Of a stretch of DNA of 64,000 nucleotides, positions 25,602-29,651 are shown one piece after another. The notes below the pieces were generated by a model. That model was not told where the DNA came from. It saw only the letters and a list, made by a program, of their open reading frames with translations, and ran no database searches. Source of the stretch: Acidobacteriota bacterium (GTDB lineage Bacteria > Acidobacteriota > Blastocatellia > Pyrinomonadales > Pyrinomonadaceae); contig JAIVJZ010000041.1 of assembly GCA_020199775.1 (NCBI GenBank), forward strand, positions 124,001 through 188,000, written 5' to 3'. Made by a program: the position numbers and the translations under genes. Each line of letters opens with the position of its first letter. Positions within the stretch are counted from its first letter, which is position 1.

Positions 25602-26750
25602 TTAATGTTCTTCCGGCTCGATGCTGCGGGCGGAGACGGTGTGCGGGCGCGGGTCGCTGCGGTAGGGTCGGCGCGAGGTGTTGCCGCCGCCGTTGATGCC
25701 GCGCGTGTCGGTGCTGTGGATGCTCGCGCCGTTCTCGTGCGGCTCTTCGGAGAGCCGCCCGAAGATCATTTTTCCGGCGGTGGTTTGCAGCACGCTCGTC
25801 ACGGAGATGTCGGCGTTTTTGCCGATCATCTTGCGCGCGTTGTCCACGACGACCATCGTGCCGTCGTCGAGGTAAGCCACGCCCTGATTGTATTCTTTGC
25901 CTTCTTTGAGGATGAAGACGCGCATCAGTTCGCCGGGCAGGACGACGGGCTTGAGAGCGTTGGCGAGTTCGTTGATGTTGAGGATGGAGACGCCGTGCAG
26001 TTGCGCCACCTTGTTCAAGTTGAAGTCGTTGGTGACGACCACGGCGTCGAGTTGCTTGCTCAGTTCGAGCAGTTTGAGATCAACTTCGCGCACCGCCGGG
26101 AAGTCCGTGTCCACGACCTGTATGTCGAGCGTGTTGTTGGTCTGGAGGCGGTTGAGCATGTCGAGGCCGCGACGCCCGCGTTGCCGCTTGTTGGAATCGG
26201 GCGAGTCGGCCACCTGCTGCAACTCGCGCAGGATGAACTGCGGGATGATAATCGCGCCGCTCAGGAACCCGGCCTCGGCGATGTCGGCGATGCGGCCGTC
26301 GATGATGACGGACGTGTCGAGGATTTTGAAATCGCGCCGCGCCGTCTTGTCGCTGAAGATGCCGCCGAGCGCGGAGAGGTCGAGATAGTCGCCCTTCGTC
26401 GCGCCGACGACGAGCCCGATGTAGGCCATCAGGAAGGTGAGCGCGAGCGTCAGGAAAGTTTTCGTCCCCGGCGCGACGGCGTCGGAGTGCTGGGTGCTGA
26501 TGAGCGAGCCGACAAGGTATGCGCCGACGATCCCCAGGATCGAGCCGACCGCCGCGCCGATCAGAGTCTTCAGCGAAGCGCGCTGGATGCGCCGCTCGAA
26601 CATGATGATGGCGAACGCGATGAGGGCGGCGACGCCTGCCGACAAGAGCGGCTTGCCCTGGATCGGATGCAGCACGTATCCGGCCGCCACCAGTAGCGCC
26701 GTGAAGACCAGACGAATGAGGATCAAATCCGTTTTCATAACGGCGTGCAT
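25602..26750 (-). CDS. PIN and TRAM domain membrane protein, YacL-like
   Basis: A 382-residue protein with four N-terminal membrane helices (about 9-25, 36-52, 64-84, 97-116). A PIN-domain nuclease fold follows, starting FKILDTSVIIDGRIADIAEAG (about 143-163) with acidic active-site residues and DAVVVTNDFNLNKVAQ near 236-251. A TRAM-like RNA-binding region occupies about 275-335. The Arg/Pro/His-rich tail is unstructured. The YacL-ispD-ispF order is the one known from Gram-positive and other bacteria. The biological substrate of these membrane-anchored PIN proteins is not known. An AAGGG site 9 bases upstream supports the ATG at 26750. Confidence 0.88.
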   Translation of the reverse strand: MHAVMKTDLILIRLVFTALLVAAGYVLHPIQGKPLLSAGVAALIAFAIIMFERRIQRASLKTLIGAAVGSILGIVGAYLVGSLISTQHSDAVAPGTKTFLTLALTFLMAYIGLVVGATKGDYLDLSALGGIFSDKTARRDFKILDTSVIIDGRIADIAEAGFLSGAIIIPQFILRELQQVADSPDSNKRQRGRRGLDMLNRLQTNNTLDIQVVDTDFPAVREVDLKLLELSKQLDAVVVTNDFNLNKVAQLHGVSILNINELANALKPVVLPGELMRVFILKEGKEYNQGVAYLDDGTMVVVDNARKMIGKNADISVTSVLQTTAGKMIFGRLSEEPHENGASIHSTDTRGINGGGNTSRRPYRSDPRPHTVSARSIEPEEH

Positions 26751-26853: not shown

Positions 26854-27303
26854 ATGGGACTCAATCTCACCAAAGTTAAATATGAAACCTTGAACGCGCG
26901 GCAACAAGAAAACTATAACTATCAAAAGCTGTCCGCCGTGCTAGCGGACTATGGCTTTGTCACCATGCGGTTGAGTGATGATTGGAAAGGTGCGGATTTG
27001 ATTGCACAGCACATTGATGGCGAAACTTTCTTAAAGGTGCAATTGAAGGGGCGACTTACACTTTGTAAGAAGTATATTAACAAATCCCTTCATATCGCCT
27101 TTCCTTACCGGGATGCTTGGTACCTTTATCCACATGATGAGCTATTAGAAATAATACAGGCCAATAGCAAAAGAACTTTTCCTTGGAGTAACAAGGGAGA
27201 GTATTCGGTTAGATCGCCTGCTAAACAATTACGTCAAATTCTAAATCCATACCTTATAGAGCCAACTCGGAATCGCCAATTGAAGTTAACATTAAATGAT
27301 TAA
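26854..27303 (+). CDS. Conserved hypothetical protein, possible PD-(D/E)XK nuclease-like fold
   Basis: A 149-residue protein of a family found scattered in many bacteria with no assigned function. The start has AGGAG 7 bases upstream. The segment SDDWKGADLIAQH (about 45-57) followed by FLKVQLKGR (about 64-72) has the spacing of the D...(E/Q)xK core of the PD-(D/E)XK nuclease superfamily, with Gln-Leu-Lys as the second half. This is my inference, not an established assignment. The gene is clearly AT-richer than its neighbours, is oriented against them and stands alone between yacL and radA, which suggests recent transfer. Confidence 0.6.
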   Translation: MGLNLTKVKYETLNARQQENYNYQKLSAVLADYGFVTMRLSDDWKGADLIAQHIDGETFLKVQLKGRLTLCKKYINKSLHIAFPYRDAWYLYPHDELLEIIQANSKRTFPWSNKGEYSVRSPAKQLRQILNPYLIEPTRNRQLKLTLND

Positions 27304-27345: not shown

Positions 27346-28716
27346 TCAAAAGAGTTCGCGCAACGCTTCTTCCACCGAGCGCACGCCGACGACGCGCAGA
27401 CCCAGCAGGCGTTGCAAGCCCTCTGCGTTCGAGGCGGGCAGGATCAACCTTTTGAAGCCGAGGGTTTGTGCCTCGCGCGCGCGCACCTGCGCCTGCATCG
27501 CCCCGCGCACTTCGCCCGTCAAACCGACCTCGCCGAACACGGCGGTTTTACCGTCGAGCGGCCGGTTCTTATAACTCGACACGAGCGCGGCGACCACGCC
27601 GAGGTCGGCGGCCGGTTCGTCGATGTCCAGCCCGCCCGCGACGTTGACGAACACGTCGTTGTTCAGCAAGGGCAGTTCGAGCCGCTTCTCCAGCACCGCG
27701 AGCAGCAGCGCGATGCGGTTCGCGTTAAAGCCCTGCGCCGTGCGCAGAGGGTAATTGTATTTCGAGCTCGCCACCAGAGCTTGCACCTCGACGAGCACCG
27801 GCCGCGTCCCTTCCATGCAGGCCGTGACCACCGACCCGGCGGCGTTTTCGGGTCGCTCCTGTAAAAAAATCTCCGACGGGTTGGCGACGGGTTTCAGCCC
27901 CGCGCCCGTCATCTCGAACACGCCGAGTTCGTTGGCCGCGCCGAAGCGATTCTTCGTCGCGCGCACGATGCGATGGTTGTGATGGCGGTCGCCCTCGAAG
28001 TAGAGCACCGTATCGACGATGTGTTCCAGAGCCTTCGGCCCCGCGATTGAGCCTTCTTTCGTGACGTGGCCGATGAGAAAGACGGGCACGCCGCGCGACT
28101 TCGCGAACGTCAAAAATCGCCCCGCCACCTCGCGCACCTGTGAGACAGACCCCGGCGCGCTTTCGATCTGCGAGGAGAAGACCGTCTGAATCGAATCCAC
28201 GATCACCGCGCCCGGCTCTTCGCGTTCCATCTCGGCGAAGATACTTTCGAGGTTCGTCTCCGGCAACAGGTACAAATTCTCGGCCACGACGCCCAGCCGC
28301 TCGCCGCGCATCTTGATCTGCCGCTCCGACTCTTCCCCCGACACGTAGAGCACGCGCGCGCCGCCCGCGCTCAACTTGTCCGCCACTTCGAGCAGCAGCG
28401 TCGATTTTCCGATGCCCGGGTCGCCGCCGATGAGGACGAGGCTTCCCGGCACGATGCCGCCGCCGAGCACGCGGTCAAACTCCGTGATGCCGGACGAGAC
28501 GCGCACGTCGTCCTGCGATTCGATGTCGGCGAAGGCGACCGGCTTCGCCTCGCGCGCGTGGAGGCCGCCGCGCGCCGCCGCGCCTTTCGGGACGGCGCGC
28601 GCGCGCTCCTCGACGAACGTGTTCCATGCGCCGCACGCCGGGCATCTGCCGAGCGACTTGGGCGACTGCTTGCCGCAACTCTGGCAGACGTAAATTGTTC
28701 CCGCACCCTTTGCCAC
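27346..28716 (-). CDS. radA: DNA repair protein RadA/Sms
   Basis: A RecA-like ATPase that promotes branch migration in homologous recombination. The 456-residue protein has an N-terminal zinc finger (Cys 11, 14, 25, 28: CQSCGKQSPKSLGRCPAC). Walker A is GGDPGIGKST near 97-106, the RadA-specific KNRFG lies near 256-260, and a Lon-protease-like C-terminal domain runs from about 330 (VNVAGGLDIDEPAADLGV). All key parts are intact. It lies 3 bases downstream of the ArsC-like gene, so those two are probably cotranscribed. Confidence 0.95.
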   Translation of the reverse strand: MAKGAGTIYVCQSCGKQSPKSLGRCPACGAWNTFVEERARAVPKGAAARGGLHAREAKPVAFADIESQDDVRVSSGITEFDRVLGGGIVPGSLVLIGGDPGIGKSTLLLEVADKLSAGGARVLYVSGEESERQIKMRGERLGVVAENLYLLPETNLESIFAEMEREEPGAVIVDSIQTVFSSQIESAPGSVSQVREVAGRFLTFAKSRGVPVFLIGHVTKEGSIAGPKALEHIVDTVLYFEGDRHHNHRIVRATKNRFGAANELGVFEMTGAGLKPVANPSEIFLQERPENAAGSVVTACMEGTRPVLVEVQALVASSKYNYPLRTAQGFNANRIALLLAVLEKRLELPLLNNDVFVNVAGGLDIDEPAADLGVVAALVSSYKNRPLDGKTAVFGEVGLTGEVRGAMQAQVRAREAQTLGFKRLILPASNAEGLQRLLGLRVVGVRSVEEALRELF

Positions 28717-28719
28717 GAG

Positions 28720-29088
28720 CTATCCCTTCTGCGCTAAAAACTCCCGAATCTTCTCCACCGGGCGACCGAGCACGGCGCGCTCGCCCCGCTCGACGATGGG
28801 GCGTTCGATGAGTTCGGGATGCGCGACCATGAGCGCGATTGCTTCGTCGTCCGTCAGTTCGCGGCGGTCTGGATTCAACTCGCGGTAGAGGGCTTCTTTC
28901 GTGCGCAGTAGTTCGCGCGGCGCGATGTTCATCTTGGCGACGAGCGCGCGCAGTTTCGCTTCGCCGAGCGGCTCGGTCGTGTAATTGACCTTCTCGAATT
29001 CGAGGCCGCTCTCACGGAGCAGGCGTCCCGCCTCGCGGCAGGCGCTTCAAGTCGGTTTCTCGTAGATCGTGATCTTGTCGTCGTTCAT
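28720..29088 (-). CDS. Probable selenoprotein of the ArsC/Spx (arsenate reductase-like) family, Sec encoded by TGA
   Basis: Read through one TGA, the frame from the ATG at 29088 gives 122 residues, the normal family length: MNDDKITIYEKPT-U-SAC, then REAGRLLRESGLEFEKVNY. The TGA (29047-29049) is codon 14, exactly where ArsC, Spx and YffB proteins carry their catalytic cysteine (KPTCSxCR). It would give a UxxC redox motif with the resolving Cys at 17. The second half (about 52-122) is a sound ArsC C-terminus: ELLRTKEALYRELN, then LIERPIVERGERAVLGRP with the conserved Arg residues. The ATG has AGGA 7 bases upstream. A small hairpin with a G-led loop starts 13 bases after the TGA. No selA/B/C/D gene is in this window. 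The alternative is a Cys-to-stop mutation, with the 70-codon remnant starting at 28932. True arsenate reduction versus another thiol role is open. Confidence 0.72.
29021..29046 (-). promoter_or_regulatory. Candidate bacterial SECIS element
   Basis: On the minus strand AGGCG (29033-29029), loop GGA, CGCCT (29025-29021) form a 5-bp stem. The loop begins 19 bases after the TGA, inside the 16-37 base window described for bacterial SECIS elements, and has G as its first base. A competing stem with a GCGA tetraloop can form closer to the TGA. Confidence 0.5.
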
Positions 29089-29159: not shown

Positions 29160-29471
29160 TCAGTGGTCTTCGGCCTTCTCTTCGATTTCGAGGATGTCGC
29201 CTTCGGTGAAGAGGTAGGTGCGCATGTGCTTGTCGAAAGCGGGACTCATGCGGCGCAGGTATTCGAGCGCCATCATGGCGTGCTCGATCTCTTCGTCGCG
29301 GTTGTGTTCGAGGATGCGACGCAGTTGATCGTCCGTCGTCACTTCGGCGCGCTGGTTGTACCAGTCAACCGCTTCCAACTCTTCCTGCACGGACTTGACG
29401 GCGCGTGAAAAATTCAACGTCCGCTCGCTCATTTTCTCGTAACTCTCATGCCACTCTGCGCTGGTTGCCAC
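29160..29471 (-). CDS. Encapsulated-ferritin-like protein (EncFtn family)
   Basis: EncFtn proteins are short ferritin-like ferroxidases that assemble as decamers inside encapsulin shells. The frame opens at 29570, but an AGGAGG site 8 bases upstream fixes a GTG start at 29471, giving 103 residues. The family hallmarks are present: EELEAVDWYNQR (30-41) with the metal Glu and the entry-site Trp-Tyr, and HNRDEEIEHAMM (56-67) with the E-x-x-H pair 61/64. The C-terminus is acidic (DILEIEEKAEDH) and lacks a recognisable encapsulin-targeting peptide. No shell gene lies next to it. It is the neighbour of the putative selenoprotein, and both fit oxidative or metal stress. Confidence 0.85.
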   Translation of the reverse strand: MATSAEWHESYEKMSERTLNFSRAVKSVQEELEAVDWYNQRAEVTTDDQLRRILEHNRDEEIEHAMMALEYLRRMSPAFDKHMRTYLFTEGDILEIEEKAEDH

Positions 29472-29651
29472 GTGGTTTTTTCCTCCTGAAAGTGCGTCGC
29501 CGAAAACTTCGCCACATCCTACCCCAGTCTCCGAGTCAAAGTCTAAAGCCGGAAACTTCGGCGGGAACAAGACGCGCGGCGGCGGGGTCTAACCTTATCG
29601 AGTCCGCTCGTTCTAGACCCGTCGGCACCGGCACAGAGAGGACTAAAAGTT

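Follow-up and report, generated by a model that had tools for sequence, protein, structure and literature searches.

A predicted UxxC selenoprotein of the ArsC family and TGA/cysteine interchange among its relatives in Acidobacteriota

A 2006 study reported two ArsC-like selenoproteins (PMC1794560), the 2008 GOS survey contained ArsC selenoproteins with UxxS and UxxC motifs (PMC2398784), ArsC-type selenoproteins were listed again in 2022 (PMC9312934), and in 2026 UxxS selenoproteins were given under TIGR00014 and UxxC selenoproteins under NF041106 (PMC13188914). The protein described here is encoded in a 64,000-nucleotide stretch of an Acidobacteriota genome (the window) and resembles the UxxS form (ArsC 1 in PMC2398784; the TIGR00014 row in PMC13188914) in belonging to PF03960, in the predicted selenocysteine (Sec) at the position of the catalytic Cys and in a bacterial SECIS following the UGA, but has a Cys (UxxC) where that form has a Ser. 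With C in place of Sec it scores just under TIGR00014 (arsenate reductase, glutaredoxin; 102.7 versus 106.05 bits), so that it formally falls outside this arsenate reductase equivalog; a TGA-bearing relative of the known UxxS form in another Acidobacteriota genome (L122 of G412, YHNPG-[U]-SKSR) reaches 150 bits. NF041106 (ArsC_rel_Se_1 selenoprotein) has the UxxC motif and the ArsC fold family in common with the window protein, which scores 17.1 bits against its cut-off of 85. “Arsenate reductase 2” (cd03032; PMC2398784) is perhaps also a UxxC relative. The open-licence literature searched yielded no paper on ArsC-type selenoproteins from this bacterial family. The original prediction of a “probable new selenoprotein” is borne out as to the selenoprotein by the machinery, the TGA/Cys pairs and the covarying SECIS presented below, but “new” was overstated, because ArsC-family UxxS and UxxC selenoproteins had already been catalogued. 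The subfamily itself is captured by no curated NCBIfam selenoprotein model and may be new, and the protein probably represents a distinct branch of ArsC selenoproteins.

The gene (Table 1) reads MNDDKITIYEKPT-[TGA]-SACREAGRLLRESG...VEKIREFLAQKG-TAG, and re-reading of the minus strand agrees with the prediction that the TGA at codon 14 is the sole internal stop of a 122-residue frame that is otherwise open. After the TGA the ArsC-family frame runs SACREAGRLL...EFLAQKG-TAG, and the downstream Cys of the proposed UxxC motif is indeed kept. The read-through protein matches Pfam ArsC (PF03960) over residues 9-117 (3.5e-22; 78.9 bits, over the gathering cut-off of 24); the standard ORF list holds the 70-residue tail alone (28720-28932), which is the fragment that a gene finder had been expected to report. 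The AGGA site before the ATG is present, but its spacing is 5 nt and not the 7 bases first given. Downstream of the TGA the dN/dS is 0.36 (NG86, window gene versus its counterpart in G001), well below 1, indicating from the sequence comparison that the amino acids encoded there are under purifying selection.

Table 1. Features of the ArsC-family locus, in window coordinates.
Feature	Position	Strand	Remarks
Encapsulated-ferritin-like protein (EncFtn, TIGR04535, just over cut-off)	29160-29570	minus	Upstream of the ArsC gene, same direction; not part of the Sec mechanism
AGGA, Shine-Dalgarno-like site	29097-29094	minus	5 nt upstream of the ATG at 29088
ArsC-family gene, predicted selenoprotein	29088-28720	minus	122 residues, predicted Sec at position 14 (U14-x-x-C17); TGA/Cys pairs in relatives
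In-frame TGA, predicted to be read as Sec	29049-29047	minus	Position of catalytic Cys12 of R773 ArsC (gapless alignment to 1jzw, offset 2)
Originally predicted stem AGGCG/CGCCT, loop GGA	29033-29029/29025-29021	minus	Shares CU with the conserved hairpin
Candidate SECIS hairpin	29022-29006	minus	Stem CUGCUC/GAGCGG (29022-29017 / 29011-29006), loop CGUGA (29016-29012)
radA/sms	27346-28716	minus	Downstream, 3 nt after the ArsC stop codon

The ArsC gene is placed between the EncFtn gene and radA, with no ars operon around. Near relatives retain the radA neighbourhood, and the ArsC gene and radA are likely co-transcribed. That the upstream EncFtn gene might tie the locus to an encapsulin system was considered and rejected, since no encapsulin shell gene (PF04454) was found in the window genome or its genus mates, nor in 19 of the 20 genomes searched; the EncFtn cargo ferritin may work without a shell in the window genome. 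Between radA and a minus-strand gene at 25602-26750 lies a 149-residue ORF on the plus strand (26854-27303) with no Pfam or NCBIfam match.

AlphaFold predicts with confidence an ArsC fold (pLDDT 88) whose best PDB matches are the arsenate reductases 3rdw and 3f0i of Yersinia and Vibrio (TM 0.85-0.89). The nearest solved structures include that of R773 ArsC and rank ahead of most Spx structures. The E. coli R773 enzyme (1jzw, 1i9d) has the same fold, with about 36% identity in the structural match, but differs in its Cys nucleophile, in having no nearby resolving Cys (CGTS) and in a longer C-terminus. Its catalytic residues are C12, R60, R94 and R107, and a gapless alignment places U14, R62, R96 and R109 on them, in accordance with the claim that the TGA sits on the catalytic Cys. 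All four positions are invariant in a 14-member alignment (A1), and the catalytic Cys/Sec is thus accompanied by equivalents of Arg60, Arg94 and Arg107. From Sec14, Arg62, Arg96 and Arg109 we infer arsenate-reductase chemistry, and arsenate reductase is the activity that these residues lead us to favour, if by a narrow preference. The protein could instead be a true selenoprotein without arsenate reductase activity, acting as an Spx/YffB-like regulator or a general thiol-disulfide oxidoreductase, to which we assign a minority but substantial probability. Spx (1z3e, 3gfk) has the same fold (about 27% identity, TM 0.72-0.81 for Spx structures) and a CxxC at its N terminus that the UxxC resembles, the second NCBIfam match is TIGR01617 (Spx/MgsR; 73.2 bits, under the cut-off of 75.05), and the neighbours of the gene are not ars genes. 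By contrast, TIGR00014 scores about 30 bits above TIGR01617, the closest structures are those of arsenate reductases, and none of the three ArsC catalytic arginines varies.

Relatives came from two screens, a protein search in 60 related genomes and an alignment search covering 396 genomes from the phylum. These yielded 53 distinct members of the subfamily; 28 of them (window gene included) have TGA at the codon of the predicted Sec and the other 25 have TGC or TGT there, which answers the question, raised with the prediction, of whether homologues have Cys or TGA at codon 14. The 27 other TGA members lie nearly all in separate genomes, and the window genome and the two genus mates that were searched all have TGA there. 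The TGA is thereby aligned to a conserved functional Cys and has TGA homologues in independent genomes; together with the low dN/dS after the TGA, its recurrence in 28 members agrees with the argument that a chance stop exactly on the catalytic Cys is improbable. A contig scan with the query P0001 returned a single near relative (71%, with TGC, in an Acidobacteriota MAG) together with distant homologues from Proteobacteria that have Cys. A protein tree was built with the Sec codon masked and with 15 additional, more distantly related ArsC proteins that also carry TGA; it rests on a small number of columns and leaves many forks unresolved. By parsimony it requires 11 Sec/Cys changes, of which well-supported (starred) branches force at least five. 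Many premature stops in relatives, which the original prediction had named as evidence against itself, were not seen: the TGA-bearing relatives are otherwise open, except for L020 (G032), which has one additional in-frame TAG 25 codons 3′ of the TGA and whose copy may be damaged or misassembled. An apparent replacement of TGA by TAG in G036, G012 and G004 was discarded: these have TGC or TGT at the Sec site, and their TAG is the ordinary stop codon. Near the intact gene, G197 (L114, oriented positions 602 and 1527) and G034 (G034:C15:129773-130110) also hold extra, truncated or frame-shifted copies of it, which point to recent duplication and decay.

The bacterial SECIS model in the literature (PMC13188914) has an apical loop of 3-9 nt with a G among its first two nucleotides, an upper stem of 4-16 bp, a distance of 16-37 nt to the UGA and an MFE of -7.5 or below. 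The window hairpin lies within these bounds, with a 6-bp stem that includes one U.G pair, the loop CGUGA, a UGA-to-loop distance of 30 nt and -8.5 kcal/mol when folded alone; as a single sequence its local fold is unexceptional (z of -1.27 for 50 nt and -1.99 for the hairpin alone). In the TGA members the stem occupies columns 25-30/36-41 (24-30/36-42 where an outer pair forms) and encloses a five-base loop CG[U/G]GA (CGGGG in one), while the stem itself varies (CUGCUC/GAGCGG, CUGUUU/AAACGG, UUGUUU/AAACAA, CUGUUC/GAACGG and others). Across 24 TGA members 95.2% of cells are paired and 22 show changes on both sides; the shuffles, which leave phylogenetic relatedness in, average 87% and 7 (0/500 each). 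RNAalifold chooses this same stem in the TGA members and finds no consensus fold in the Cys members. Hairpin and CG[T/G]G[A/G] loop occur together in 25 of 28 Sec members versus 3 of 25 Cys members (Fisher p 9e-9, the relatives not being independent). The Arg codon of the loop is CGT or CGG in 25/25 and never CGC, although CGC makes up 64% of the Arg codons in six window genes; this avoidance of the favoured codon is in keeping with the G[G|U] rule of that model (PMC13188914). Three Cys members that retain the Arg, by contrast, use CGC. In the three Cys members with hairpin and loop (L016, L019, L111) the hairpins are likely relics of a recent Sec-to-Cys switch. The three TGA members that lack the hairpin at these columns (L105, L115, L116) instead form different strong hairpins downstream of the UGA, with loops led by G. 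The stem first proposed as the SECIS, AGGCG/CGCCT, is present in the window but is not conserved (55% of cells paired across the 24 TGA members, with covariation no better than in shuffles, 144/500), and it is probably not the SECIS; the conserved hairpin lies 3′ of it.

The genome containing the window (G000; 5.9 Mb, 92% complete, 77 contigs) encodes SelA, SelB, SelD and tRNA-Sec(UCA), the four components whose presence had been proposed as a check. The profile scores are 540 bits for selA, 364 for selB and 363 for selD, and the tRNA-Sec, at C40:74303, is called SeC (tca) by ARAGORN. It is the one strong tRNA-Sec match in this genome, the examined lower-scoring matches being tRNA-Ser, Leu and Tyr. 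Furthermore, selD (L084, G000:C11:556720-557646) has a single in-frame TGA within NCAG-U-AAKL, which we take to be the usual Sec/Cys site of SelD, followed by a hairpin CGCUCAG-GUU-CUGGGCG. Thus selD is another TGA-interrupted gene in the organism, of a type known to include selenoproteins, and on its sequence a probable second selenoprotein gene. Among the first 60 genomes searched, all 18 with a TGA member of the subfamily have selB and tRNA-Sec over cut-off; of the Cys-bearing genomes, G022 is without selB and tRNA-Sec, G027 without SelB over cut-off and G036 without a tRNA-Sec match. A second, differing tRNA-Sec(UCA) gene is seen in each of G003, G011 and G026 (L135, L136, L137), through contamination or true duplication.

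That the TGA is translated as Cys or Trp, by a suppressor tRNA or one of the selC* type, or is passed by leaky read-through, is highly improbable: tRNA-Sec-like genes with a GCA (Cys) anticodon do occur in two genomes of the same class, but the only strong tRNA-Sec match of the window genome has the tca anticodon, the SECIS hairpin and the Sec/Cys pairs are what SelB decoding requires, and SelD has its own TGA at the usual Sec site. The GCA-anticodon genes (L138:694-784, minus, in G044; L139:664-757, plus, in G052) stand beside a normal tRNA-Sec(UCA) in both genomes. They resemble the selC* tRNA-Cys reported from Firmicutes, Thermodesulfobacteria, Nitrospirae and Proteobacteria (PMC7609411), and may extend its range to Acidobacteriota. 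A sequencing error or recent nonsense mutation, in an ordinary Cys ArsC gene or a decaying pseudogene, is scarcely credible, for while a single-base error is possible in principle in an assembly of 77 contigs and close homologues with TGC or TGT exist, it is refuted by TGA at the same codon in the 27 other members and opposed by the selection past the TGA, the hairpin that covaries in TGA members with no consensus fold in Cys members, and the full Sec machinery.

The complete machinery, the TGA/Cys interchange and the covarying SECIS support the reading of the gene as encoding a selenocysteine-containing ArsC-family protein, to which we give a probability of about 0.95. SelB, loaded with the Sec-tRNA(UCA) that SelA and SelD help to make, would bind the CGUGA-loop hairpin after the UGA, and Sec would be inserted at position 14; without this insertion the ribosome would halt after 13 residues. 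Sec14 would then stand where arsenate reductase has its catalytic Cys, and the enzyme would most likely reduce arsenate, or else a similar oxyanion or a thiol, via a Se-adduct held by Arg62, Arg96 and Arg109. Cys17 is placed to resolve a selenylsulfide, which suggests an intramolecular selenylsulfide with recycling by thioredoxin, although glutaredoxin could also serve.

Further TGA-bearing ArsC proteins were observed outside the subfamily. A second clade, LIC..T-[U]-xxCRKAVALL (L120, L121, L123-L132; TGA at oriented positions of about 1500-1600), is found in several Acidobacteriota families, and most of its members have a strong hairpin GCAAGGC-GGUC-GCCUUGC whose loop is 17 nt downstream of the UGA; L127, L131 and L132 show compensatory changes in it. 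L121, the single member run against NCBIfam, stays below the cut-offs. Another type, YHKPT-[U]-TSCRKAK (L133 and L134, in G216 and G247), has Spx-like best NCBIfam matches, also under cut-off.

Tentatively, and at somewhat less than even odds, we propose for the window protein an uncatalogued UxxC ArsC branch that is widespread in one Acidobacteriota family, has undergone repeated Sec/Cys exchange with relic SECIS elements in Cys members, and acts as a self-resolving, thioredoxin-coupled arsenate reductase via Sec14-Cys17. If true, such an enzyme would be unlike the glutaredoxin-dependent Cys enzyme. The selenoprotein reading would correct a gene that ORF calling otherwise trims to its C-terminal fragment. 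Moreover, the approximately 53 variants of this small enzyme, with Sec or with Cys, form a naturally matched set in related genomes, which makes the benefit of Sec to an ArsC-type enzyme, as well as the gain and decay of SECIS elements, directly testable.
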